38,107 bases of DNA from Pirellulaceae bacterium (lineage in GTDB: Bacteria; Planctomycetota; Planctomycetia; Pirellulales; Pirellulaceae). This document shows, in pieces, positions 1 to 12,286 of the stretch. The stretch spans positions 1 to 38,107 of the forward strand of contig JAUXWY010000026.1 of assembly GCA_030681235.1 (NCBI GenBank). The letters are read 5' to 3'. A model generated the notes under the pieces. The model worked only from the letters and a program-made list of their open reading frames with translations. It was not told the DNA's origin and ran no database searches. Numbering within the stretch: position 1 is the first letter of the stretch; each line of letters begins with the position of its first letter. The position numbers and the translations under genes are program-made.

Positions 1-1
1 T

Positions 2-1927
<1,926 letters not shown>

Positions 1928-1988
1928 TTGCGGGTTTGCCGGAAAATCTAGCAACGGCCTGGCAGGCAGCCTGTTGGGACGATTTGTA

Positions 1989-2016
1989 GAGCCAGTTCTT
2001 TGAACTGGCTCTTTTT
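1989..2016 (+). terminator. Intrinsic terminator of katG
   Basis: A perfect 10-bp stem (GAGCCAGTTC pairing with GAACTGGCTC) with a TTT loop is followed directly by five T. It lies about 60 bases after the katG stop. Confidence 0.92.
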
Positions 2017-2110
2017 ATTGCAATTCAAACTTTTGCGCGAACGAAGTAATCGACACCGCGTCTAATCGGTTGACCTACAGCGGATTGCTGAGGTAGGCCA
2101 TCAAAACAAA

Positions 2111-2127
2111 CGAGTCACGGAGACTCG
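2111..2127. repeat. Small hairpin with an ACGGA loop
   Basis: CGAGTC and GACTCG form a perfect 6-bp stem around the loop ACGGA. The loop resembles that of the two intercistronic hairpins at 5886-5911 and 6802-6826 (ACGGAG), which suggests one dispersed family of small palindromes. It lies 24 bases upstream of the possible small gene at 2151. Confidence 0.5.
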
Positions 2128-2150
2128 CTTACTTTACCGGAACGTGGACC

Positions 2151-2279
2151 ATGTCACTGCATCATCTCAACTTCAATTTATGGACGCAACGAATCCAGCC
2201 GGTGAACGGTCAGCGGAATCCGATCCATCGTGGATTGAAACCGGCCGCGAATTGGAAGGTAACACAGGGTTGGCCATAA
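2151..2279 (+). CDS. Possible 42-aa small protein, unrecognised
   Basis: An ATG-to-TAA frame of 42 residues starts MSLHHLNFNLWTQ and ends KVTQGWP. It is rich in Asn, Gln and Trp and basic, with no membrane segment. The best support is context: the stop is 30 bases before a very strong intrinsic terminator (2310-2351), so something is transcribed here, and this frame fits exactly between that terminator and the katG terminator. No convincing ribosome binding site is visible; GGAACG about 10 bases upstream is the best candidate. I recognise no family. The alternative is that 2130-2351 is a noncoding RNA. A longer 88-aa frame over the same bases reads through the terminator and is less likely. 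Confidence 0.35.
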   Translation: MSLHHLNFNLWTQRIQPVNGQRNPIHRGLKPAANWKVTQGWP

Positions 2280-2309
2280 CGGCCAATCAGACAACGATTC
2301 ACGTTGGCT

Positions 2310-2351
2310 GGCCCGGTGTTCCCTCCCCCCAGGAACACCGGGCCTTTTTTT
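2310..2351 (+). terminator. Strong intrinsic terminator upstream of the tRNA array
   Basis: A perfect 13-bp GC-rich stem (GGCCCGGTGTTCC with GGAACACCGGGCC) and a 9-nt loop are followed by seven T. It ends a transcript that begins after the katG terminator and insulates the tRNA array, which starts 50 bases later. Confidence 0.92.
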
Positions 2352-2400
2352 GTTGCTGCGGGGACAGCGGAAGCGGCGTGTTTGATCCGGTTAGATGCTT

Positions 2401-2472
2401 GGACTGGTAGCTGAGATGGTTTAGCAGCGGTCTGAAGAGCCGTAGACGAGGATTCGAGCACCTCCCAGTCCA
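2401..2472 (+). tRNA. tRNA-Phe (anticodon GAA), first of the array
   Basis: Acceptor GGACTGG pairs perfectly with CCAGTCC and the discriminator is A. The D loop AGATGGTT keeps GG. The anticodon loop CTGAAGA gives GAA (Phe), on a stem with two G-U pairs. The T arm has four good pairs, but the normally invariant G53-C61 pair is A-A. CCA is not encoded. It is a recognisable tRNA-Phe with a weakened T arm. Confidence 0.8.
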
Positions 2473-2483
2473 CTCGAGTAATT

Positions 2484-2551
2484 GGGCTTGCCGATGGGTC
2501 GGCGCTTTGACTTGCAATCAAGGCTTCTGGGTTCGATTCCCAGCTTGTCCA
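2484..2551 (+). tRNA. tRNA-Ala (anticodon TGC) with a shortened D arm
   Basis: The anticodon loop CTTGCAA gives TGC on a 5-bp stem that can extend to 7. The T arm CTGGG/CCCAG is perfect. The alanine identity pair G3-U70 is present and the discriminator is A. The acceptor has two T-T mismatches (5-68 and 6-67). Only 15 bases lie between the acceptor and the anticodon stem. They fold as CCGA-TGGG-TCGG, a D arm with a 4-nt loop, so the gene is just 68 nt long. CCA is not encoded. Whether it works in translation is uncertain. Confidence 0.65.
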
Positions 2552-2595
2552 CTGAGCGAAGAATATCGTTGACCGTTTACAGATGAGAATTGATT

Positions 2596-2668
2596 CGGGC
2601 AAAGGTGCAGATGGTAGCACGCCTGCTTTGGGAGCAGGAGGCTCTCGGTTCGACTCCGAGGTGCCCGA
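2596..2668 (+). tRNA. tRNA-Pro (anticodon TGG)
   Basis: The anticodon stem CCTGC/GCAGG carries loop TTTGGGA, anticodon TGG. The acceptor has C1-G72 and discriminator A, as expected of bacterial tRNA-Pro, with one mismatch at 7-66. The D arm GTGC/GCAC and T arm CTCGG/CCGAG are perfect. Length is 73 nt; CCA is not encoded. Confidence 0.88.
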
Positions 2669-2702
2669 CTGGAGCGATCATGTCGACGACGATCATCACC
2701 AC

Positions 2703-2774
2703 GGTAGTCGCGGGCTGGTTGCCCATACCCGGCTGATAACCGAGTCGCGCTGAGTTCGATTCTCAGGGCTACCA
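2703..2774 (+). tRNA. tRNA-Ile (anticodon GAT) with a 5-nt D loop
   Basis: The acceptor GGTAGTC/GGCTACC pairs fully and the discriminator is A. The anticodon loop CTGATAA gives GAT, the usual Ile loop, and the T arm CTGAG/CTCAG is perfect. The D arm is GGGC/GCCC around only TGGTT, and the anticodon stem has a C-A mismatch. CCA is not encoded. Confidence 0.78.
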
Positions 2775-2850
2775 TTTCCACCAACCACGCAAGAAAGAGA
2801 AAACATGGAAACGCTTTCGCGAATAAAACGTTGCCTCACGACTTCAATTC

Positions 2851-2922
2851 GAGGTTGTGGTGTAGCGGTTGCACAGCGGACTTTTAATCCGCAGAGCGTG
2901 GGTTCGAATCCCACCGGCCTCA
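2851..2922 (+). tRNA. tRNA-Lys (anticodon TTT)
   Basis: The acceptor GAGGTTG/CGGCCTC pairs through with two G-U pairs; the discriminator is A. The anticodon stem GCGGA/TCCGC holds loop CTTTTAA, anticodon TTT. The T arm GTGGG/CCCAC with TTCGAAT is canonical. Length is 72 nt; CCA is not encoded. Confidence 0.9.
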
Positions 2923-2930
2923 CTTTGCAC

Positions 2931-3001
2931 GCACGGATGGTCTAGTGGCATGACACCGCTTTCGTAAAGCGGCGGCGTGAGTTCGATTCTCACTCGGTGC
3001 T
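2931..3001 (+). tRNA. tRNA-Thr (anticodon CGT)
   Basis: The anticodon stem CCGCT/AGCGG holds loop TTCGTAA, anticodon CGT. The T arm GTGAG/CTCAC is perfect. The acceptor has one G-G mismatch (5-68), the D stem is 3 bp and the variable loop 4 nt. The discriminator is T, unusual for bacterial tRNA-Thr. CCA is not encoded. Confidence 0.8.
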
Positions 3002-3018
3002 CTTGAACAAAAGTTTAT

Positions 3019-3091
3019 TCCGGTGTAGCCAAATTGGTAAGGCTCGTCCCTGTTAAGGACGCGATTGTAGGTTCGAATCCTACTGCCGGAG
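3019..3091 (+). tRNA. tRNA-Asn (anticodon GTT)
   Basis: The acceptor TCCGGTG/TGCCGGA pairs fully, and discriminator G matches bacterial tRNA-Asn. The anticodon loop CTGTTAA gives GTT on a 5-bp stem. The D loop AAATTGGTAA and T arm GTAGG/CCTAC are canonical. Length is 73 nt; CCA is not encoded. Confidence 0.92.
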
Positions 3092-3100
3092 CTAAGAGCG

Positions 3101-3149
3101 AGGTTTCAGGTTCCAGATTCCAGATTGGAGATTGGAGATTGGAGATTGG
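3101..3149. repeat. Heptanucleotide tandem repeat, seven units
   Basis: Seven 7-nt units run AGGTTTC, AGGTTCC, AGATTCC, then four AGATTGG, giving a stepwise gradient of single changes. It sits between the tRNA-Asn and tRNA-Gln genes. A second array of seven 7-nt units follows the last tRNA (3487-3535). Confidence 0.9.
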
Positions 3150-3155
3150 AGACGC

Positions 3156-3227
3156 ACGGGTGTAGGCCAGTGGAAAGCCGACTGCCTTTGAAGCAGTAGA
3201 GCGAAGGTTCGAATCCTTCCGCCCGTA
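3156..3227 (+). tRNA. tRNA-Gln (anticodon TTG)
   Basis: The acceptor ACGGGTG/CGCCCGT pairs fully with a weak A1-U72 pair. The discriminator is A, whereas G is usual for Gln. The anticodon stem ACTGC/GCAGT holds loop CTTTGAA, anticodon TTG. The T arm GAAGG/CCTTC is perfect. Length is 72 nt; CCA is not encoded. Confidence 0.87.
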
Positions 3228-3244
3228 TGTTGCAGAATTCGTAT

Positions 3245-3319
3245 TCCGGAGTAGCAGTTATTGGCTGTTGCGTATGGCTTTGATCCAGAAGTTCGCAGGG
3301 TCGATTCCTGCCTTCGGTG
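3245..3319 (+). tRNA. tRNA-Gln-like gene (anticodon TTG), degenerate
   Basis: This is a second gene with anticodon TTG (loop CTTTGAT). The acceptor TCCGGAG/CTTCGGT has T1-T72 unpaired, and discriminator G fits Gln. The D arm AGCAG/CTGTT and T stem GCAGG/CCTGC pair, but the T loop starts with G instead of the conserved T54, and the anticodon stem has an A-G mismatch. It is 75 nt long with no CCA. It may be a decaying copy or a specialised tRNA. Confidence 0.6.
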
Positions 3320-3332
3320 CTTGATCAAAGAT

Positions 3333-3406
3333 GGTGGCCGTCCTGTATTGGTCCAGGAACTTGGATGTGACCCAAGTCCATATCGGTTCGATTCCGATCG
3401 GTTACC
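3333..3406 (+). tRNA. tRNA-His (anticodon GTG)
   Basis: The anticodon stem CTTGG/CCAAG holds loop ATGTGAC, anticodon GTG. An eighth acceptor pair, G-1 with C73, is encoded, which is the hallmark of bacterial tRNA-His. The remaining acceptor pairs include two G-U. The T arm ATCGG/CCGAT is perfect. CCA is not encoded. Confidence 0.9.
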
Positions 3407-3411
3407 CTTGC

Positions 3412-3483
3412 GGTGCGGTACGCCAACGGTGAGCGACTTGTTTTAGAAACAAGTGATTGTGGGTTCGAATCCCACCTGCACCA
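3412..3483 (+). tRNA. Class I tRNA with leucine anticodon TAG
   Basis: All arms pair: acceptor GGTGCGG/CTGCACC, D stem CGC/GCG, anticodon stem CTTGT/ACAAG and T arm GTGGG/CCCAC; the discriminator is A. The loop TTTAGAA gives anticodon TAG, which reads the Leu codon CUA. Bacterial tRNA-Leu normally has a long class II variable arm, but this one has only TGATT (5 nt). The fold is good and the identity is odd: it may be charged with another amino acid or not used in translation. Confidence 0.75.
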
Positions 3484-3486
3484 TTG

Positions 3487-3535
3487 TTGGTTCTTGGTTC
3501 TTGGTTCTTCGTTCTTGGTTCTTGGTTCTTGGTTG
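3487..3535. repeat. Heptanucleotide tandem repeat after the tRNA array
   Basis: Seven 7-nt units of TTGGTTC, with one TTCGTTC unit in the middle and a final TTGGTTG, total 49 nt. Unit size and copy number match the unrelated-sequence array at 3101-3149. Confidence 0.9.
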
Positions 3536-3651
3536 TGCTTGTCGGTTTTGCCGACTGGACTTAGGATGTTCTGCTTGTGGGTCTGCTCCGGAATGAAAAC
3601 ACGGTGGGCGGAGGACCACCACACGACGGACTCCTGCAAGGTTTTTACCGC

Positions 3652-4410
3652 TTGTTCGACATTACAGACTTTTCAATTCTAGCGGTTGTTTTGACGGTTG
3701 GCATCTTGATCCAGGCCTCGTCTGGTTTTGCGGCTGGATTGCTGGCGGTCCCGGTCTTGTTGCTCAGCGGCTCGTTTGCAATCCCCGAAGCGCAAGCTGC
3801 GATATTAGTTTCGACCGTGCCGCAAAACATCTACGGCGTCTGGTCGTTCCGCCATGAAGTGCGGGGGCGAGACCTGATCTTTCCAGCCGGGCTCCGATTG
3901 TTGGGTCTACCGATTGGAGCCTTGATACTGTACCAGATCGAGTCGTTTCCTCGCGACGCCATTCATCAAGGTGTTGGTGCCTGTGTCGTAGCCATCGCGA
4001 TAGCCATGATCATTCTGCGTCCCAAGCCCCAGGCCACGATCTCGCAAGTTTACTCGATCCCAACTTTTTTCTTGTCGGGCTTTCTGCAGGGACTCATCGG
4101 CATGGGTGGTCCGCCCATGGTTTTTTGGGTCCAAGCCCATGACTGGAGCACACAACGAAGTCGCGGCTTTCTTTTCAGCATGTACTTGATCAGTCTGCTC
4201 CCCGCGTTTCTAACGCTGTATCTCGTGTTTGGCACGCGCATTGGGCCACCGATTCTCATGTCGCTGTTTTTGGTTCCGTGGTTGCTGGTCGTGACCTGGT
4301 TTGGTCTAAAGATCGGCACCCGATTAGGCCGCGAACGACTCCGATATTTCACGTTGGGGTTATTGGTTTTGCTGGGACTAGTGGCCGTCTTGAGCCCGTT
4401 TTTCAAGTAA
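3652..4410 (+). CDS. TauE/SafE family permease (sulfite/organosulfur exporter type)
   Basis: This is a 252-residue inner-membrane permease almost entirely made of hydrophobic segments, about eight, the usual size for TauE/SafE proteins. The family moves sulfite, sulfoacetate or other organic anions, but the substrate here cannot be read from sequence. The N-terminal half holds the glycine-rich IQASSGFAAGLLAVPVLLLSG stretch and the second half the matching FLSGFLQGLIGMGGPPMVFW, the two inverted family repeats. I chose the TTG at 3652 because AAGG lies 10 bases upstream and the family-like sequence starts there. A GTG at 3577 would add 25 residues of low-complexity sequence unlike the family. 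It converges on the operon that ends at 4652. Confidence 0.85.
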   Translation: MFDITDFSILAVVLTVGILIQASSGFAAGLLAVPVLLLSGSFAIPEAQAAILVSTVPQNIYGVWSFRHEVRGRDLIFPAGLRLLGLPIGALILYQIESFPRDAIHQGVGACVVAIAIAMIILRPKPQATISQVYSIPTFFLSGFLQGLIGMGGPPMVFWVQAHDWSTQRSRGFLFSMYLISLLPAFLTLYLVFGTRIGPPILMSLFLVPWLLVVTWFGLKIGTRLGRERLRYFTLGLLVLLGLVAVLSPFFK

Positions 4411-4651
4411 CTCGACCGACGTTCAGTTGAAGTCGCTGAATCACGACGCGAAAACAACTCGGGGATTAGCTTCCAGCATTGCACACCGATGGGCAACAAC
4501 ACGAGCGGGAAGAACAGCGTCAGCGCCAAGAGACCAACCACAGGTCGCGATGTTGTCTCCGTGAAATTGAACGGCTGTTCACCACCCGTAACCAGGCTGT
4601 CGATCGACAGCACTGGAGTACTTTTGACTCGGACATTGTTTTGACGGAATG

Positions 4652-5827
4652 TTAGGACGGCACCAAGTGATGTGGCAGATCCGTGACGGTCGCGCAACCA
4701 ATCTGCTCCATCACCTGCCGCAGTTGCCGTTTGAGCATAAAAATTGTGTGATCGCCGCCGCGGTCGCCCAACGCGCCGACTCCGTACATAAAACTGCGGC
4801 CCATGAACACGAACTTTGCCCCCGAAGCCAACACACACGCGACATCCGGACCGCTCCGAACACCACTGTCCAGCATCATCGTCGTGCGACCGCCGAATTC
4901 TTTCGCCAACGCGGTCAACGGCCGGATCGTGGACTCGCCTGCATCCAACTGCCGACCGCCATGGTTGGACACGATCATGCCGTCCACTCCCAACCGCAAC
5001 GCCAATTCGGCGTCTTCCGGTGTGACGATGCCTTTGACGACCAGCTTCCCCGGCCAGCGATCGCGAATGGCCTTGATCTTGTCGGCCGTCAGGCGTCCCG
5101 AAAATGTCTTGTTCATGAACAATCCCAAGTGCTTCATGTTGAGTCCCTTGGGGATGTAGGGCTTCATGGTCTTGAACTCAGGTTTTCCGGCCGTGAGTTG
5201 CCCAAGGCACCACGTCGGTCGCACCAACATCTGCGAGATGTTTCTCAGCGACATCCGCGGCGGAATCGACAAGCCGTTGCGAATCTCTTTCGGACGATAA
5301 GCAAATGTCGGCGTATCCGCCAGGATCACCAATACCGGAAATCCAGCCGCTTTCACGCGATCGATCAACTTGTCGCGCAGGTCCAGTTCCGCGGGATGAT
5401 AGAGTTGGAACCACGCCTTGCCACCGGTGATCTCCGCTACTGTCTCGATGCTGGCCGTTCCCACCGTGCTGAGAATGAACGGGATGCCGTTGTCGGACGC
5501 AGCCTTGGCTAAGATCTCGGTCGAACGCGGCCACATCAGTCCTTGCAAACCGATCGGAGCCACACCAAACGGAGCCTCGTAGACTTGGCCAAAAATCTCC
5601 GTTCGTAAACTCGCGCCGGGGTAATCGCTCAAATACCACGGTCGCAACCGCACTTCGCGGATCTCGTCCGTGTTCCGCCGCAAATTCACTTCGGAGAAAC
5701 ACCCGCCCTCCAAGTATTCGAACGCAAACCGAGGCATTCGCTGCCGGGCTCGTTCTCGCAAGTGATCGATCGATGGGTACTCGGAATTGAACGAGGCTTC
5801 TGCAGGATCGGGTGTTTTGTCGGACAT
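4652..5827 (-). CDS. lldD: FMN-dependent alpha-hydroxy-acid dehydrogenase (L-lactate dehydrogenase-like)
   Basis: A 391-residue member of the FMN-dependent alpha-hydroxy-acid oxidase/dehydrogenase family, TIM-barrel enzymes that oxidise L-2-hydroxy acids such as lactate or glycolate to 2-oxo acids. The catalytic His (about 289) and substrate Arg (292) lie in SNHGGRQLD. The FMN Lys (265) is in KLVVKGI, and the QLY strand is near 141. The C-terminal DSGVRSGPDV and GRSFMYG segments bind FMN phosphate. It is a soluble version with no membrane segment. It is third in a minus-strand operon, 90 bases after the PF09370 gene and separated from it by a hairpin repeat. The exact substrate is unknown; its neighbours suggest a small hydroxy-acid pathway rather than simple lactate use. 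Confidence 0.85.
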   Translation of the reverse strand: MSDKTPDPAEASFNSEYPSIDHLRERARQRMPRFAFEYLEGGCFSEVNLRRNTDEIREVRLRPWYLSDYPGASLRTEIFGQVYEAPFGVAPIGLQGLMWPRSTEILAKAASDNGIPFILSTVGTASIETVAEITGGKAWFQLYHPAELDLRDKLIDRVKAAGFPVLVILADTPTFAYRPKEIRNGLSIPPRMSLRNISQMLVRPTWCLGQLTAGKPEFKTMKPYIPKGLNMKHLGLFMNKTFSGRLTADKIKAIRDRWPGKLVVKGIVTPEDAELALRLGVDGMIVSNHGGRQLDAGESTIRPLTALAKEFGGRTTMMLDSGVRSGPDVACVLASGAKFVFMGRSFMYGVGALGDRGGDHTIFMLKRQLRQVMEQIGCATVTDLPHHLVPS

Positions 5828-5885
5828 GAGTGATTCAAAGAGAGTGCGTGGGGGGTGGGTAAACGGGTTGCTGATATGTTTCGTC

Positions 5886-5911
5886 TGGCCAACGGAGCGG
5901 TCAGCGACATT
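5886..5911 (-). repeat. Intercistronic hairpin repeat, copy 1
   Basis: A hairpin six bases after the stop of the PF09370 gene. The 20 bases 5892-5911 are identical to 6807-6826, next to the stop of the preceding gene. The stem is CTGACCG with TTGGCCAG around a CTCCG-type loop and carries one mismatch. No T-run follows, so it is not a classical terminator. Confidence 0.7.
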
Positions 5912-5917
5912 TAGAGC

Positions 5918-6745
5918 CTATCCCAACTGCAATTTCATAAAATCAGCAACTTGTGACTTGATCGCGACTTCGGTCGGCAAGCGTTCCATGGAACTCGCTC
6001 CATAAAACCCATGAATATCGCAGCGATTCAGAATGTACTGAGCATCTTCCGGCATCGCAATTGGTCCGCCATGACACAAGACGATCACATCCGAACGCAC
6101 GGATCGACCGGCATCCGCAATCGCGGTGACTCGTGCGACACAGTCTTCAAGCTTCAGTGCCGATTCGGCCCCGATCGCACCGCCCGTCGTCAAGCCCATG
6201 TGAGCGACCAAAATATCGGCTCCCGCCTGAGTCATCTCGATTGCTTGCTGCGGATCGAACACGTAGGGAGTGGTCAGCAGCCCTAGTTGATGCGCGGCGG
6301 CAATACACTCCACTTCCAAACCATATCCCATCCCCGTCTCTTCCAAGTTCGCGCGGAACATCCCGTCGATTAGGCCAACCGTCGGAAAATTCTGGATTCC
6401 TGAGAATCCCAACGAAATCAATTCGTTGAGGAAATGGTCTCGCAGCATGAAAGGATCAACTCCGCAGACACCAGCAATCACCGGTGTGTGGGAAACCGTC
6501 GTCAGCACTTCGCGAGCCATCTCTTTGACGATGTCGTTGGCATTGCCAAAAGGCAGCAATCCGGACAAAGACCCGCGGCCAGCCATCCGATAGCGACCCG
6601 AGTTGTAAATCACGATCAGGTCGATCCCGCCGGCCTCTTCACATTTCGCACTGATCCCGGTCCCCGCTCCGCCACCAACAATAGGTTCTTTCCGAGCGAC
6701 TTTGGCCCGCAGACGGTACAAGATAGATTCACGAGTTTGACGCAT
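5918..6745 (-). CDS. PF09370 TIM-barrel protein ('phosphoenolpyruvate hydrolase-like'), Tm-1 C-domain homologue
   Basis: A 275-residue predicted cytoplasmic TIM-barrel protein of PF09370. The family carries a phosphoenolpyruvate-hydrolase-like name, but its reaction is not firmly established. Family-like segments are [19 protein letters not shown] near residues 22-40, [12 protein letters not shown] around 43-54, [12 protein letters not shown] around 117-128, [10 protein letters not shown] around 180-189, VLCHGGP and [12 protein letters not shown] near the C-terminus. It follows a UPF0261 protein in the same operon with 81 bases between them. In plants the two domains form one protein, the tomato Tm-1 virus-resistance protein, and in many bacteria they are adjacent genes. 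Recognition is by remembered family sequence, so the domain call is good and the biochemical role is unknown. Confidence 0.82.
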
Positions 6746-6801
6746 TGATTGCTTCCAATGTAGTGGACCGTTCCCACGGCCCTGCTTAACCTTACAAACC
6801 T

Positions 6802-6826
6802 GACCGACGGAGCGGTCAGCGACATT
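6802..6826 (-). repeat. Intercistronic hairpin repeat, copy 2
   Basis: A perfect palindromic stem CTGACCG/CGGTCAG around CTCCGT, directly abutting the TAG stop of the UPF0261 gene. It shares 20 identical bases with the copy after the next gene (5892-5911). There is no T-run, so an mRNA stability or processing role, or a mobile REP-like repeat, is more likely than termination. Confidence 0.75.
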
Positions 6827-8092
6827 CTAACAACGCTCGGTCGAGGTCGCGAGCATCTGCAAAAAATTCTCGGCCAGCGCTTGCGAGAACTCTGGAGCAT
6901 TGATGTCGTACGGCAAACGAATCAACATTCGCTGCGACGAAGTTTTCAAACATCGTTCTAACTCGTCGAATAATACGGCATCCGCTTCAGGATCGTAAAA
7001 CGGTTTGCCCGGTACGTCGATCAAGGAAACGCCGCCTTCGGGCACCAACACTCGCCACGGTGCTGTGGAGCGATTCAACTTCTCAGAGATGAAACCGGCG
7101 ATCCGACGATTCTCTTCGACGGTCGTCCGCATCAGCGTGACTTGCGCGTTGTGGACGTGCAGTTTGCGTCCTGAGAACTGGGCAGGCACCGTTTCCAATC
7201 CGGCAAAGTTCACCATGTCCAACGCGCCCAAGCTGACCACTAACGGGATTCCAGCGTCCAACAACTTGTCGAACCTTTGCGGGCCAGCGCTAAACACTCC
7301 GCCGGCAATTTCATCAGCCACTTCCGTGGTCGTTATATCCAACACGCCGGAAATCAACCCTGAGGCGACCAACTGTTCCATCGCACGTCCGCCGGAGCCG
7401 GTCGCGTGGAAGACCAAGCAATCAAACCCTTGGGCTTCCAAGATTTCGCGGACTCGAGTGACACACGGCGTCGTGACCCCAAACATCGTCATGCCAATGG
7501 TCGGGCGAGAAAGAGACTGAGGTTGTTTGTGCAGGGCCATGCCCGCCATCGCGTGGGCGGCGTTGGATAAGACAACGGTCGAGACGGCATTCAGCCCGGC
7601 CACATCCACGACAGAATACATCATCGCGATATCGCTGCTATCAACGTAGGCCGACACATTCCCGCTGGCGACCGTTGACACCATGAGTTTCGGAAGACCG
7701 ATCGGCAAAGCCCGCATGGCAGTCGTGATAAGAGACGTACCACCGCTGCCACCCAATCCCAACACGCCCGCCACGTTTCCCGCCGCTACTTCGGCCAACA
7801 GGTAACTTCGAAGCGCCTCCGCCATCATCGCGATAGCTTGACCTCGGTCCGTGGACACTGTTGTTGGCTCGGTAGTCGATCCATTGGCTGAAATCATTTT
7901 CAGGGCGTCTGCCGGTGCTAACGAGGCCATGACGGTTTCTCGCGAGACATCCGGGGGCACGGTTGGCGGTCCCAATGTGCCTACATCGATCATTCGGACT
8001 TGGGCTCCAGCTTCACGCAATCGGTCGCGAACGAACTCCAATTCGGAGCCCTTCGTGTCCATCGTGGCGACAACGTAAACAGATGGCGACAT
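6827..8092 (-). CDS. UPF0261 family protein (Tm-1 N-terminal domain-like, ATP-binding)
   Basis: A 421-residue soluble protein of UPF0261 (PF06792), the family of the N-terminal domain of tomato Tm-1. It starts with the typical VYVVATMDTKGSELEFVRD. Other conserved stretches are GVLGLGGSGGTSLITTAMR, LMVSTVASGNVSAYV and DIAMMYSVVDVAGLN, then GMTMFGVTTPCV and FHATGSGGRAMEQL, followed by the C-terminal VPEGGVSLID. The start is set by AAGGAAG seven bases before ATG 8092; an upstream in-frame start at 8185 would add 31 residues unlike the family. It is first in an operon with a PF09370 protein and an alpha-hydroxy-acid dehydrogenase. In this family the UPF0261 fold binds nucleotide; the physiological role in bacteria is unknown. 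Confidence 0.85.
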   Translation of the reverse strand: MSPSVYVVATMDTKGSELEFVRDRLREAGAQVRMIDVGTLGPPTVPPDVSRETVMASLAPADALKMISANGSTTEPTTVSTDRGQAIAMMAEALRSYLLAEVAAGNVAGVLGLGGSGGTSLITTAMRALPIGLPKLMVSTVASGNVSAYVDSSDIAMMYSVVDVAGLNAVSTVVLSNAAHAMAGMALHKQPQSLSRPTIGMTMFGVTTPCVTRVREILEAQGFDCLVFHATGSGGRAMEQLVASGLISGVLDITTTEVADEIAGGVFSAGPQRFDKLLDAGIPLVVSLGALDMVNFAGLETVPAQFSGRKLHVHNAQVTLMRTTVEENRRIAGFISEKLNRSTAPWRVLVPEGGVSLIDVPGKPFYDPEADAVLFDELERCLKTSSQRMLIRLPYDINAPEFSQALAENFLQMLATSTERC

Positions 8093-8281
8093 ACCACTTC
8101 CTTTATCAACACCAAACTCGCAACCGTCGCCAGAGCTTCCCTCCAGGGTTTTTGTGGCGACGCTTCCAAGCCTGCTGGAAAACACCAGATTCCAAGCACA
8201 TTCCGTCGAACGTACTTCCGCAGTGGCCCCACGTTCTCTAGCAGAGCACTGTCTAGTCTAACATATGGAAGGATCGGACGG

Positions 8282-8440
8282 CCCACGGATGGCAATGCCG
8301 AACGGCGGATGAATGCGTTCCGATGCATGCGGTTTCGAAGAGAACACCGTCAGCGTACGATCCGGTCATTAAGCAAAAGCCGTTGAACAAGGACGGGTCA
8401 GCCGTCTTTTCATCCGCAGTTCGGCTATGCCATCCGTGGG
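8282..8440. repeat. Inverted-repeat element with 31-bp imperfect arms
   Basis: The left arm 8282-8312 and right arm 8410-8440 are inverted copies of each other with three mismatches, enclosing about 97 bases. The left arm also matches 30785-30811 with one mismatch in 27, so the arm belongs to a dispersed family. No transposase is encoded inside. It occupies the divergent spacer between the UPF0261 operon and the gene at 8595. The rest of 8093-8594 shows no gene. Confidence 0.8.
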
Positions 8441-8594
8441 AATCACCGAACACTGGCATTTTGTCGAACTGCGACTCAGACCATCCAGCCCCCTGTCGAT
8501 CTTGACGCCGCATTTGGAGTTCGCTAGGGTCCGCCTTTAGATTGCGGAGCGATCGATATCATACCCTGATTGGAGCTGATTCGGAGTTTGGACC

Positions 8595-9692
8595 ATGAGA
8601 AATTCGTCAACAAAACTCCGCCCAGCCACCTTGGTTACGGGAATCGTCGCCAGCACTCTCTGCCTTCCTTGGTATGCTGTTGCTCAAGAAAATTCGACGG
8701 GGGCGAAACCCAACCCACCTCAGTTTCAGATCTCGGACGATCCGATATTGCCACGACCTGTCCAAGCGATCCCACCGAAGCCGTCGCCAATCATCGACAT
8801 TGCCCCGAGCGAGCCGCTGGTCCCCGCACCGTTAGAAGAGCCCAAATCAAATCCAGAATCAATCCGCGAGGTCATTGAACAAGCCATTGAGGAAGCGGTC
8901 GAGGTCGAGTCACGACTCGACATTTTCTTCGAGCAGAGCAAGGCCTACACGGCCTATCGATCGTATCAAACTGGCTTTCAATGGATCGCCGGTTCGAATG
9001 ACGATTTCGGTTGGTTCAGTTGGCAGTCGGATCCCTATCTGCGACGAGAGTCAGATTCCGGCTTATCGCTGACATTCAACCTGCACGGGCTATCAGGTCC
9101 AATCGCGCCAAATGTCTCACCCCGACTGTACGATGCGGTGGCGAGTTACCAAGTCCGAAAATCGTTTTCGAGCAATTTTAGCTACGATGTGGCCGCCAGC
9201 GTCGGCGTGTTTAGCGACTTTGAAGGCAGCGCTCGGAAAGGTGTGCGCTTCCCGGCACATGCTGTCGGGATGATTCATCTCAATTATCGGGCTGACTTGG
9301 TTTTTGGAGCCGACTACTTGGATCGCCAGGATATCAAAATTCTGCCGGTTGCGGGAGTTTCGATCCGTGAGTTCTTGGCCCCCAACGTACGGTTGGATTT
9401 GATATTTCCGCGCCCAAGGATCGACTTTGCACTGGACAATCAACACCGAGTCTACGTCGCGGGGCTCTTGGGCGGCGGAACTTGGGACTACGAAGCCACG
9501 GCCGATACCCGCGAATTGCTCACGTATCGGGACTACCGAGTCGTCCTGGGTTTCGAGTTCGCTGACAACGACAACCATCTCTCGTCGATCGAGTTCGGCT
9601 ACGCCTTCGGCAGGCAATTGGAATTCGCCAACGCCGGAATCACTCTCAACAGTCCCGACGCGTTTGTGCTACAATGGGTCAGTCGGTACTAA
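8595..9692 (+). CDS. Predicted outer-membrane beta-barrel protein (DUF6268-like)
   Basis: A 365-residue exported protein. A cleavable signal peptide covers about residues 1-30 (basic MRNSSTKLR, hydrophobic LVTGIVASTLCLPW, then AVAQ). A Pro-rich segment with repeated PPKPSP-like stretches follows (about 37-90), then a short acidic helix (about 91-115). The last 240 residues alternate polar and aromatic residues in beta-strand pattern and end in WVSRY, a terminal aromatic as in outer-membrane barrels. The layout resembles the DUF6268 proteins common in planctomycetes; I base that on overall appearance, not a signature motif. The function is unknown. The ATG is preceded only by GGAGCTG about 20 bases away, so the ribosome site is weak. 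Confidence 0.7.
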   Translation: MRNSSTKLRPATLVTGIVASTLCLPWYAVAQENSTGAKPNPPQFQISDDPILPRPVQAIPPKPSPIIDIAPSEPLVPAPLEEPKSNPESIREVIEQAIEEAVEVESRLDIFFEQSKAYTAYRSYQTGFQWIAGSNDDFGWFSWQSDPYLRRESDSGLSLTFNLHGLSGPIAPNVSPRLYDAVASYQVRKSFSSNFSYDVAASVGVFSDFEGSARKGVRFPAHAVGMIHLNYRADLVFGADYLDRQDIKILPVAGVSIREFLAPNVRLDLIFPRPRIDFALDNQHRVYVAGLLGGGTWDYEATADTRELLTYRDYRVVLGFEFADNDNHLSSIEFGYAFGRQLEFANAGITLNSPDAFVLQWVSRY

Positions 9693-9823
9693 GTTCTGGC
9701 CCCACAACGATGATCTGGACTGCAACTTCTTACGCCAGAACGTGAAGGTCTCGCTTCGTAGGCAAGACACCGTGTTCTGGCCCGCGTAGCTACACGAACG
9801 TTCACGCTCTTGAGTTTCTCGCG

Positions 9824-10300
9824 ATGCCGAAGCCCGCTTCCAAAACGGATCTACTGGCAGGTAATGAGGACGCTTTTCGGAGCCTCAGCGACTTACTGGC
9901 GCCGCTCTCCAAGACCCAACTCGATCGCAACGTCCGCGACGTATTGGCTCACTTGTACGAGTGGCAACAGATGATGTTCCAGTGGTATCAGGTTGGGATG
10001 GCGGGTGGAACCCTAGTGATGCCAGCGCCGGGCTTCACTTGGCAAACAACTCCGAAACTGAACCAACAAATCTGGCAGAGCTATCAATCGTTCACGTTGG
10101 CTGACGTTCGCAAGAAACTGAATCGGTCGCACAACAAACTGCAAAAACTGATCGAAAAACATTCGAACGAAGAGCTTTTTACCAAACGCCACTATCCTTG
10201 GACAGGCTCGACTTCTCTTGGCGCTTTCCTCACCAGCGCTGGCTGGAGCCATTACAACTGGGCCTTGAAAATATTGCGCAAATTCGCGAAACAGTGTTAA
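9824..10300 (+). CDS. ClbS/DfsB family four-helix bundle protein
   Basis: A 158-residue soluble all-helical protein of the ClbS/DfsB (DUF1706, DinB-like) family. The N-terminus MPKPASKTDLL, the DVLAHLYEWQQMMFQWY helix (about 38-54) with a conserved His, and GWSHYNWALK near the C-terminus fit the family. ClbS of colibactin producers protects against that genotoxin as a cyclopropane hydrolase; most relatives are of unknown function. No colibactin-type or other biosynthetic genes lie nearby, so self-protection is not supported here. It probably forms a one-gene unit. Confidence 0.75.
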   Translation: MPKPASKTDLLAGNEDAFRSLSDLLAPLSKTQLDRNVRDVLAHLYEWQQMMFQWYQVGMAGGTLVMPAPGFTWQTTPKLNQQIWQSYQSFTLADVRKKLNRSHNKLQKLIEKHSNEELFTKRHYPWTGSTSLGAFLTSAGWSHYNWALKILRKFAKQC

Positions 10301-10584
10301 GTCACTTAACATCGTGACGACGAAAAGTAGTAGTGAACGGTGTTTAACAGTCAGCCGAAAGGCGTACTCGTGCCACTTCATGTGCACCGGCTAAATTCGG
10401 GCGGGATTCTAATAGTAGAGCGAGCCCGATCGCCGGCGAATAGCAACTCTACTCCAGGTCCCTCAAGCGTTCTAAAATGGTCTTCCATTGGGCCACCTCT
10501 GAGCGCCACACATCACCCACCGAGGATGACAACTTCTACTAAATTCGAACTTGGCTTGAAAACCCAGTCGCAGAATTCGCCGCG

Positions 10585-11958
10585 TTAAAGGTCGCTGATT
10601 TGCTCGGCCGCGCGAAGTCCCGAGAGGTAGGCGCCATGGGCGGTTCCAAAGTACTCGTGATCCGTGGCTTCACCGGCGAAGTAGAGCTTGTCCGCGACCG
10701 GCTTCGCCAATTGACGACGAAACTTTGGATCCGCGCCAACCGGATTGTACGAGTAGGCTCCGAAAGAAAAGGGATCGGAGGCCCATCGTGTCAATTGATA
10801 ATCAATCGGCTCGGGGATGTCGGCTCCAAACAAATGGCGGAGCGTTGTCATGGCACTGGCTACGATCTGTTCATCTGTCCAATCCTCGATTTCGCGGCCT
10901 CGGTCGGCTGCGTTAAAGCCTAGCAACACAGGGACGTTGGCTGCGCGAACGAAACTGACCCACTCGACCCACTCGCCATGTTTCGTCGTGATGCACTCGA
11001 GCCAATCCACATCGGTCGGCCAAAAGACTTTGGGGAACCGGAGATAACACTTGTTCAAGACCCCCATTTCCAACTTGGCAATGGCTGTGACGATCGGCTT
11101 TGGCAATGAAGGCGAAAACTTGACCCCGCCGGCTTTCAATACGCCCAAGGGCAAGGTCACGACGACTTGATCCGCTGTAAATTCTTCAGTCGCGGTCGAT
11201 ATTCGAATTGGAGCTTGATCCCAAACAACTCGGCGGACGATTTGGCCGGTCTTGATCGTGAGGTTCTTCGCCAGGTACTTGACGATCTGTTCGTAGCCGT
11301 CGGCAAATAGACCATCTTCTCCGTCAAATTCTTCAGCACTATCGAACCATTGGGCAGACAATTTTGTGGCGCTACCGGCATACTCTTGCTCCAACATGCT
11401 GCTGACTAAGAAGCTGAGCATTTGCCGGACTTGTTCATTCGCTCCCAGTTTTTTTTGCAATCGCTCGGCGACCTCGCGCAGACTTGTGTCTTCGTCGGCC
11501 TCTTGAGCCGCCTCGATGGCCGACTGAAACTGGTCCCGCAATCGGTCCAGTTGCGTCTCTTTCGCTTCGGAGAGTTCCTTACCGGTAACGTCATAAATGC
11601 GATTGGATTCGTAGCTGGTTTCAATCAACTTGGCGTGGGCTTGTTTTGCCAAGTCGGTTAGCGGATTCCCTTCCAAGCCATGAATCCAACTGGCGCCCAT
11701 GTCCAACGGGATATCCGGCCACTTGTTGCTAGTCCAGAGTCGTCCGCCAATTCGTTCACGTCCCTCCAGCACCACCACCTCAATGCCTTGGTTCTGCAAT
11801 TCGCGAGCGGCCGCCAATCCGGCCAACCCGGCTCCAATCACGATCACTCGACGTGACACCGGTTTCCTTTCTTCCATACCAATCGCGTGGCGTTGGCCGA
11901 TTCCACAAATCCCGAGCCCCATCGCGGTCAACAAACGAACTAAAGAACGACGATCCAC
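10585..11958 (-). CDS. Tat-exported flavin monoamine/polyamine oxidase family protein
   Basis: A 457-residue FAD-dependent amine oxidase. A twin-arginine signal opens it (DRRSLVRLL then a hydrophobic GLGICGIG), so it should be exported folded with its FAD. The dinucleotide-binding motif is VIVIGAGLAGLAAARELQ (about residues 38-55), followed by ERIGGRLWT and DMGASWIHG. The C-terminal LYFAGEATDHEYFGTAHGAY is the second FAD-binding segment of amine and polyamine oxidases. These oxidise amines to aldehydes with release of ammonia and peroxide; the substrate is not deducible. I chose GTG 11958 because AAGG lies eight bases upstream; GTG 11967 is the alternative. It stands alone on the minus strand. 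Confidence 0.85.
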   Translation of the reverse strand: MDRRSLVRLLTAMGLGICGIGQRHAIGMEERKPVSRRVIVIGAGLAGLAAARELQNQGIEVVVLEGRERIGGRLWTSNKWPDIPLDMGASWIHGLEGNPLTDLAKQAHAKLIETSYESNRIYDVTGKELSEAKETQLDRLRDQFQSAIEAAQEADEDTSLREVAERLQKKLGANEQVRQMLSFLVSSMLEQEYAGSATKLSAQWFDSAEEFDGEDGLFADGYEQIVKYLAKNLTIKTGQIVRRVVWDQAPIRISTATEEFTADQVVVTLPLGVLKAGGVKFSPSLPKPIVTAIAKLEMGVLNKCYLRFPKVFWPTDVDWLECITTKHGEWVEWVSFVRAANVPVLLGFNAADRGREIEDWTDEQIVASAMTTLRHLFGADIPEPIDYQLTRWASDPFSFGAYSYNPVGADPKFRRQLAKPVADKLYFAGEATDHEYFGTAHGAYLSGLRAAEQISDL

Positions 11959-12286
11959 AAACTCCACCTTTTTCTACTGCCAACCCCGCCACAATCATAG
12001 CGAATTTCGCTGGGCTAAGAAAGGAAGTCCGTGTCCACCTAACACGTCCAACACTAGTGAAACAAACGATTGTGCTGAAATAATGAAGTGAGCGTTGGCC
12101 ACAAAGTTTGGCTCGGGCCTTCAGTATAACGACGAACGAGCTTGTTCCGTCCGGACAAGGAAAAATAAAAAGCACAAAATCGCGTCTCAAACAGTGCGCG
12201 GGTGGTGTTCCGAATGAAATTCTTGTGTTCGAACGTCGCAAAAAAAGAAATGGAATCCGTGGGTATTACCGGAACAGAGACGGGGA
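11959..12286. other. Gene-less spacer between the amine oxidase and the diguanylate cyclase
   Basis: About 330 bases. I see no convincing coding frame, RNA gene, repeat or terminator. Its right part borders the end of the GGDEF gene and its left part holds the leader of the amine oxidase. Confidence 0.5.

Follow-up and report, generated by a model that had tools for sequence, protein, structure and literature searches.

Eleven tRNA genes lie close together on a 38,107-nt contig of a Pirellulaceae bacterium (the whole stretch is hereafter called the window). We propose, with moderate confidence, that they form a reduced, vertically inherited planctomycete operon of spare tRNAs, of the long-array kind, which would be induced by stress and controlled by an attenuator. 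The array is real, maintained and supernumerary: its genes are extra, they are under purifying selection, and the control region before them is conserved. We infer which way the switch works and that the operon serves under stress.

The array and its relatives in the same genome

tRNA genes in the window were detected with ARAGORN, with the Rfam tRNA model at its gathering threshold, and by reading the sequence by eye. Between positions 2401 and 3483, ARAGORN found nine genes, all on the + strand. The Rfam model found eight, without Ala and Ile at that threshold and including a Gln-like gene (3245-3319) missed by ARAGORN; the Ala gene reached 23.4 bits for a cut-off of 29. The His gene was recognised by eye and as a sub-threshold match to the tRNA-Sec model (24.3 bits, cut-off 47). 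Since seven genes scored 53.6-68.8 bits, with E values of at most 6.2e-9 over the window, the set is not due to chance. The three approaches together confirmed the original prediction of eleven tRNA-like genes with ten identities, in 1.1 kb and on one strand:

2401..2472, + strand: tRNA-Phe(GAA), non-standard 53-61 (A-A) (ARAGORN, Rfam, 53-61 comparison)
2484..2551, + strand: tRNA-Ala(TGC), 4-nt D loop, G3-U70 kept (ARAGORN, sub-threshold model match, sequence)
2596..2668, + strand: tRNA-Pro(TGG) (ARAGORN, Rfam)
2703..2774, + strand: tRNA-Ile(GAT), 5-nt D loop (ARAGORN)
2851..2922, + strand: tRNA-Lys(TTT) (ARAGORN, Rfam)
2931..3001, + strand: tRNA-Thr(CGT) (ARAGORN, Rfam)
3019..3091, + strand: tRNA-Asn(GTT) (ARAGORN, Rfam)
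3156..3227, + strand: tRNA-Gln(TTG) (ARAGORN, Rfam)
3245..3319, + strand: second Gln-like tRNA (TTG), without T54 (G there) (Rfam, 33.9 bits; C184 counterpart is Gln(CTG))
3333..3406, + strand: tRNA-His(GTG), with G-1 (sequence, sub-threshold match; C184 counterpart found by ARAGORN)
3412..3483, + strand: tRNA-Leu(TAG), short (class I) variable loop (ARAGORN, Rfam, housekeeping comparison)

The structural defects named in that prediction are present in the sequence, namely the short D loops of Ala and Ile, acceptor mismatches in Ala (5-68 and 6-67) and Thr (5-68), the altered 53-61 of Phe and the missing T54 of the Gln-like gene. The housekeeping Leu(TAG) of the same genome is 84 nt long and of class II. 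That no CCA tail is encoded is also true of the array genes, but this is no peculiarity of the array, since the housekeeping tRNAs that were printed show none either.

Upstream of the array lies a gene for a peroxidase-domain protein (56-1927), and downstream of it one for a TauE/SafE transporter (3577-4410). No integrase was seen, as judged by eye, among the ORFs listed for positions 1-12000. Heptamer tandem repeats (AGATTGG and TTGGTTC) occur in array spacers (window 3122-3152 and 3487-3534). The spacer before tRNA-Lys(TTT) (2775-2850) is longer than most, keeps an AAAC(G) motif across genera and may hold a small ORF.

The window is one contig (C473) of a 6.4 Mb assembly in 521 contigs, with 92% completeness and 3% contamination. 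Ordinary copies of all ten array anticodons were found elsewhere in this 92% complete genome, and the array is therefore supernumerary. Array tRNAs share 59-77% identity with the housekeeping copies of the same anticodon, in agreement with the earlier view of an array separate from the housekeeping set, of a kind known in other bacteria. That the genome might hold no other copies of these anticodons was checked and proved not to be the case; the ordinary copies rule out the array as the sole normal tRNA set.

A second array was found on contig C184, with 27 genes in 2.5 kb, of which 24 were detected by ARAGORN and three (Phe, Pro and Asp) by eye. All eleven genes of the window recur on it in the same order, and the window array is its reduced, colinear relative. 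Long tRNA arrays have about 20 or more genes at high density; the eleven genes of the window fall under this threshold, and C184 has 27. The C184 array adjoins a DUF2924 gene and a truncated resolvase-like ORF (the latter below the Pfam cut-off, E 0.00086), so that the predicted absence of a nearby mobile gene stood for the window and did not extend to its relative. GmrSD-like and weak HipA-like proteins are encoded near the C184 array (L031:508-2412 and 5340-6305), in surroundings that resemble a defence island. Further array-type genes lie at the start of contig C1, and on contig C300 there is an isolated array-type tRNA-Thr(TGT), which shares 94.6% identity with an array copy.

Conservation and spread of the array family

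Orthologous arrays were found in two genomes of the window's genus, G051 and G134, beside the same downstream TauE/SafE gene (78% amino-acid identity). None of the fetched relatives showed the upstream peroxidase gene, so that synteny is demonstrated for the downstream flank only. Nine and seven tRNA genes, respectively, are shared with the window, at 88-100% identity; both Gln genes are absent from the two genomes, and Thr and Asn also from G134. Spacers of at least 30 nt matched those of the orthologues at 12-45% (best local match), for 61-66% in the neighbouring gene. The terminator upstream of the array (see below) is 95-98% identical in both.

In array Phe, Leu(TAA) and Ile(TAT) genes, stem positions were paired in 95.1%, 91.9% and 96.8% of cells, versus 91.6%, 85.2% and 93.7% in the best of 200 partner shuffles, and covariation exceeded that of each of the 200 shuffles. 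The array genes are thus under purifying selection. Neutral decay into a cluster of tRNA pseudogenes is rejected on the strength of this covariation and of the conservation of genes over spacers. Phe 53-61 is A-G, G-A or A-A in all 37 distinct sequences, and Ala and Ile genes with short D loops are found again in C184 and in other genomes. The description of the array as structurally degenerate, in the sense of decay, is not borne out, since the Phe oddity is family-wide, the short-D-loop genes recur and genes are far more conserved than spacers. Judged from these sequences, the oddities are mostly inherited family traits. Some decay confined to the window is nevertheless real: the C184 counterparts of the Gln-like and Ala genes have better acceptor pairing, and the former is also better at T54.

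When 60 genomes of the GTDB family were searched with a piece of C184, 30 gave a match, and identity was 81-95% in some other genera. The window locus is inherited within its genus beside TauE/SafE. A tRNA-Phe signature was found in 81 of 242 family genomes. Its reversed control gave 15 sites, so that some matches may be due to chance. At least one tRNA lay downstream of 87 of the 93 distinct signature sites; the six sites without an ARAGORN tRNA were left out, giving the 87 arrays analysed below. With a stricter signature, 89 stretches were found in a collection of species-level genomes; 79 of the 80 listed bear planctomycete names. Of 392 genomes in a phylum-wide draw, 6 matched.

Some relatives of the array hold few recognisable tRNAs. 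Ile-TAT was present in 55 of the 87 arrays and Arg-GCG in 37, and Arg-ACG in none. The short form of tRNA-Leu, without the long variable arm of the housekeeping type, was found for Leu(TAG) in 44 of 45 genes (72-75 nt) and for Leu(TAA) in all 36 (74-76 nt); Leu(CAG) was long in 18 of 24, and Leu(CAA) measured 79-81 nt in 12 of 40. A search for plasmid relatives at the DNA level gave no match. A phage origin of the whole array was rejected, because matches to phage DNA covered no more than 4% of the query. Six contigs of the IMG/VR viral collection (L270-L275) carry the array Phe signature; one of them (L272) holds 32 tRNAs in another order, with Arg-ACG present.

Protein genes are embedded in many relatives. 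HNH endonuclease relatives were found within 31 fetched loci (overlaps counted), and none in the window array; Band-7/slipin genes are embedded in other relatives, for instance between tRNA-Arg genes in two arrays (L088:8655-9512 and L090:7480-8346). Of three plasmid relatives of the HNH protein, two accompany tRNA arrays and one, from Acaryochloris, has no tRNA. A protein of about 270 aa (276 aa), without Pfam match, is encoded in 16 of 75 arrays (L090, L165, L178, L179 and 12 more), mostly after tRNA-Arg(TCT). In 17 array gaps, genes for 23S-rRNA-intervening-sequence proteins (PF05635) lie on the opposite strand in the spacers, as if inserted.

A control region upstream of the array

Four elements were recognised between the peroxidase gene and tRNA-Phe:

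2039..2064, + strand: ECF-type promoter candidate, GAAC-N17-GTCTA (motif statistics; also in orthologues L077 and L128)
2151..2279, + strand: leader ORF, 42 codons and a TAA stop (2277-2279) (ORF reading; position statistics)
2256..2273, + strand: antiterminator candidate, complementary to the terminator 5' arm, -18.6 kcal/mol (complement search)
2310..2351, + strand: intrinsic terminator separating leader and tRNA-Phe, with a GC-rich stem of 13 pairs and a T run (-27.9 kcal/mol)

The exact promoter motif was present upstream of 62 of the 87 arrays, versus 2 of 435 shuffles, about 240-420 nt before Phe and with a spacer of 17 (59 arrays) or 18 (3 arrays). It was absent from the other 25, C184 included. 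A terminator lay at most 150 nt before Phe in 84 of 87 arrays, versus 37 of 435 shuffles. A consensus scan for promoters of the sigma-70 type found none on the + strand in 1900-4000.

The strict motif GCGAACC-N15-CGTCTA had 18 matches in 16 genomes. Eleven were situated within about 0.4 kb before arrays and two at 1.6-2.2 kb upstream; at one of these two, leader and terminator were intact and a reverse-transcriptase ORF lay between. One match immediately preceded the stray tRNA-Thr in the genome of the window, and four were upstream of one ECF sigma gene (Sigma70 regions 2 and 4). Because the reversed control gave 13 sites, versus 18 true matches, the weight of the strict motif rests on location and spacing and not on number. 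With a spacer one base longer there were 3 matches, and 12 in the corresponding reversed control. At the stray tRNA-Thr(TGT), the motif is directly 5' of the gene with no attenuator between (G000:C300:3149-3267).

The exact motif was found 0.7-1.0 kb upstream of this ECF sigma gene in 20 of 35 loci (16 of 31 when the four motif-found loci are set aside), at none of eight other spacings, and in 5 of 700 shuffles. Within the genus of the window, the closest homologue of the sigma factor is only 47-49% identical, and the motif was upstream of it in none of four genomes. The sigma factor was present in 184 of 242 family genomes, versus 81 for the Phe signature, and thus also where no array matched.

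The 84 terminator-bearing arrays were thinned to 48 by 8-mer overlap, and the leader ORF was tested on the 29 with the promoter motif. An ATG ORF of 24-60 codons ending just before the terminator was found in 28 of these 29, versus 105 of 580 shuffles, and in 25 of the 28 the stop was 28-36 nt upstream of the terminator arm. Among 35 leaders of one clade, compared pairwise, 879 of 1161 gaps inside the ORF were multiples of three (282 others), against 131 of 3331 outside it (3200 others). The reading frame is thus protected, in support of a translated leader ORF. Its dN/dS was 0.67, but 0.76 in one other frame. Leader-peptide families are recognisable within groups of genera; the window's own peptide is only weakly like those of other genera, and no run of one codon was found in the leader peptides.

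In 38 of 48 leaders, the stretch most complementary to the terminator 5' arm was found at the leader stop (10.0 expected, with a position window set after the first leaders had been seen). A leader's own arms paired at -17.4 kcal/mol versus -14.4 for swapped arms (0 of 5000 permutations, in a test that ignores kinship), and in many leaders TGA-CAC is partnered by GTGTCAC and TAA-CAC by GTGTTAC. Relative to shuffled segments, z went beyond -2 in only 22 of 48. The pairing belonged to the minimum-energy leader fold in 18 of 48, versus 41 of 240 controls, and was absent from that of the window leader; with short pieces, folding does not tell leaders from controls (39-47 of 48 versus 154-176 of 240). 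No description of this control region was found in the literature, the main 2021 survey of long arrays, which may say more, having been outside the search. Within the reach of this search, the control region formed by promoter, leader ORF and terminator is new; the clusters are already in print.

A proposed regulated reserve of tRNAs and its alternatives

In ribosome-mediated attenuation, as in the trp and his leaders, a promoter is followed by a short ORF, an antiterminator in the path of the ribosome, and a terminator before the structural genes. The window leader offers a candidate promoter, a short ORF and a terminator, and a candidate antiterminator that would overlap the ribosome path; unlike trp and his, it precedes tRNA genes instead of genes for biosynthetic enzymes and has no single-codon run. 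In the operon that we propose, an ECF sigma factor would drive transcription under stress, and RNA polymerase would first make the leader with its short ORF. A ribosome at the leader stop would cover the antiterminator, the terminator would form and the array would stay off. With ribosomes stalled or scarce, the antiterminator could pair with the terminator 5' arm and polymerase would read into the array. The transcript would then be cut into tRNAs, which would receive CCA and supplement damaged or depleted housekeeping tRNAs.

More tentatively, the whole could be a self-contained translation-rescue regulon, in which an autoregulated ECF sigma factor and a translation-sensing leader peptide release a parallel tRNA set. 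This set would follow its own shape rules (class I Leu, odd Phe T arm), avoid modification-dependent anticodons in decoding (of 87 arrays, 55 have Ile-UAU, 37 Arg-GCG and none Arg-ACG), and work when housekeeping tRNAs are cut, depleted or unmodified.

Clusters of tRNA genes in many planctomycetes, with a single-copy tRNA-Ile-UAU, have been described as 'partially degraded' and dispensable (PMC4807772, accessible text), and they are almost certainly the same family as the window array; the accessible text does not describe the control region, unlike the reading given here. A decaying, horizontally acquired cluster without function, as that text reads them, would fit the piecemeal loss of genes (C184 has 27 and the window 11, of which the orthologues share 9 and 7), the window-only defects of the Gln-like and Ala genes and the few recognisable tRNAs of some relatives. 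We regard it as improbable, since genes are much more conserved than spacers, stems covary, and promoter, leader frame and terminator are conserved. The array might also supply extra tRNAs constitutively and so fit the tRNA pool to codon use, such as that of acquired genes. This is less probable still: such a role was suggested for planctomycete tRNA-Ile-UAU (PMC4807772, same portion), and Ile-TAT is present in 55 of 87 arrays, yet the window array has no rare anticodon, all ten being already in the genome, and a terminator precedes 84 of 87 arrays.

Mycobacterial arrays have been proposed to be spread by mobile elements and to provide tRNAs that serve as replacements or decoys against nucleases that cleave tRNA (PMC12803027, accessible portion). 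Such an anti-defence role, which we consider unlikely here, would account for array DNA 81-95% identical between genera, for tRNAs only 59-77% identical to housekeeping copies, for the embedded HNH endonuclease and Band-7 genes of relatives, and for the Phe signature on six IMG/VR contigs. Against it stand the inheritance of the window locus within the genus beside the same gene, the lack of a phage or integrase gene in the window, and an ECF promoter with attenuator that suggests a response to the host's own translation state. It and the stress-operon reading are not mutually exclusive. The leader and terminator might instead be a separate gene for a small RNA or peptide, with the array read from its own promoter after the terminator. 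The terminator would end such a transcript, and the antiterminator folds are weak; however, leader and array travel together over dozens of arrays, and the scan of 1900-4000, limited to the sigma-70 type, gave no + strand promoter, which makes a separate gene a poor candidate.

The stress-induced operon that we favour has a parallel in Anabaena PCC 7120, in which plasmid delta bears a long tRNA array (the trn operon) repressed by TrcR, whose regulon includes an HNH endonuclease and a slipin (PMC10272220, accessible text). Like the window's, that array is an extra tRNA operon beside a housekeeping set. Genes of kinds homologous to the HNH and slipin genes of the TrcR regulon are embedded in the planctomycete arrays. 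The switch differs: the Anabaena -10 box is overlapped by the site of an RHH repressor (PMC10272220), whereas the planctomycetes have an ECF-type promoter, leader ORF and terminator. Further differences from Anabaena as described there are the chromosomal-type contig, the eleven genes and the lack of HNH in the window. The HNH and Band-7/slipin genes common to the TrcR regulon and the relatives, together with the Nostoc array described below, lead us to place the window array among the long arrays, as a reduced form whose switch is different. Mycobacterial units share redundant anticodons, divergent sequences, an embedded HNH and horizontal spread; they differ in having 26-27 genes and in lying on linear plasmids in M. 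avium, and the accessible portions of PMC5966550 and PMC12803027 mention no leader attenuator. Directly upstream of a Nostoc plasmid array lies an HNH relative, and the array, like many of the planctomycete family, includes Ile-TAT and a class I Leu; it differs in gene order and in having Arg-ACG.

To our knowledge, the role and trigger of long tRNA arrays are open outside one cyanobacterium. The arrays described here number dozens and share one testable candidate switch, made of promoter, leader ORF and attenuator. The class I tRNA-Leu genes raise the question of how a bacterial LeuRS would charge them. If the proposed reading is true, tRNA genes would be a new kind of target for ribosome-mediated attenuation, and clusters written off as degraded would constitute a regulated reserve of translation.
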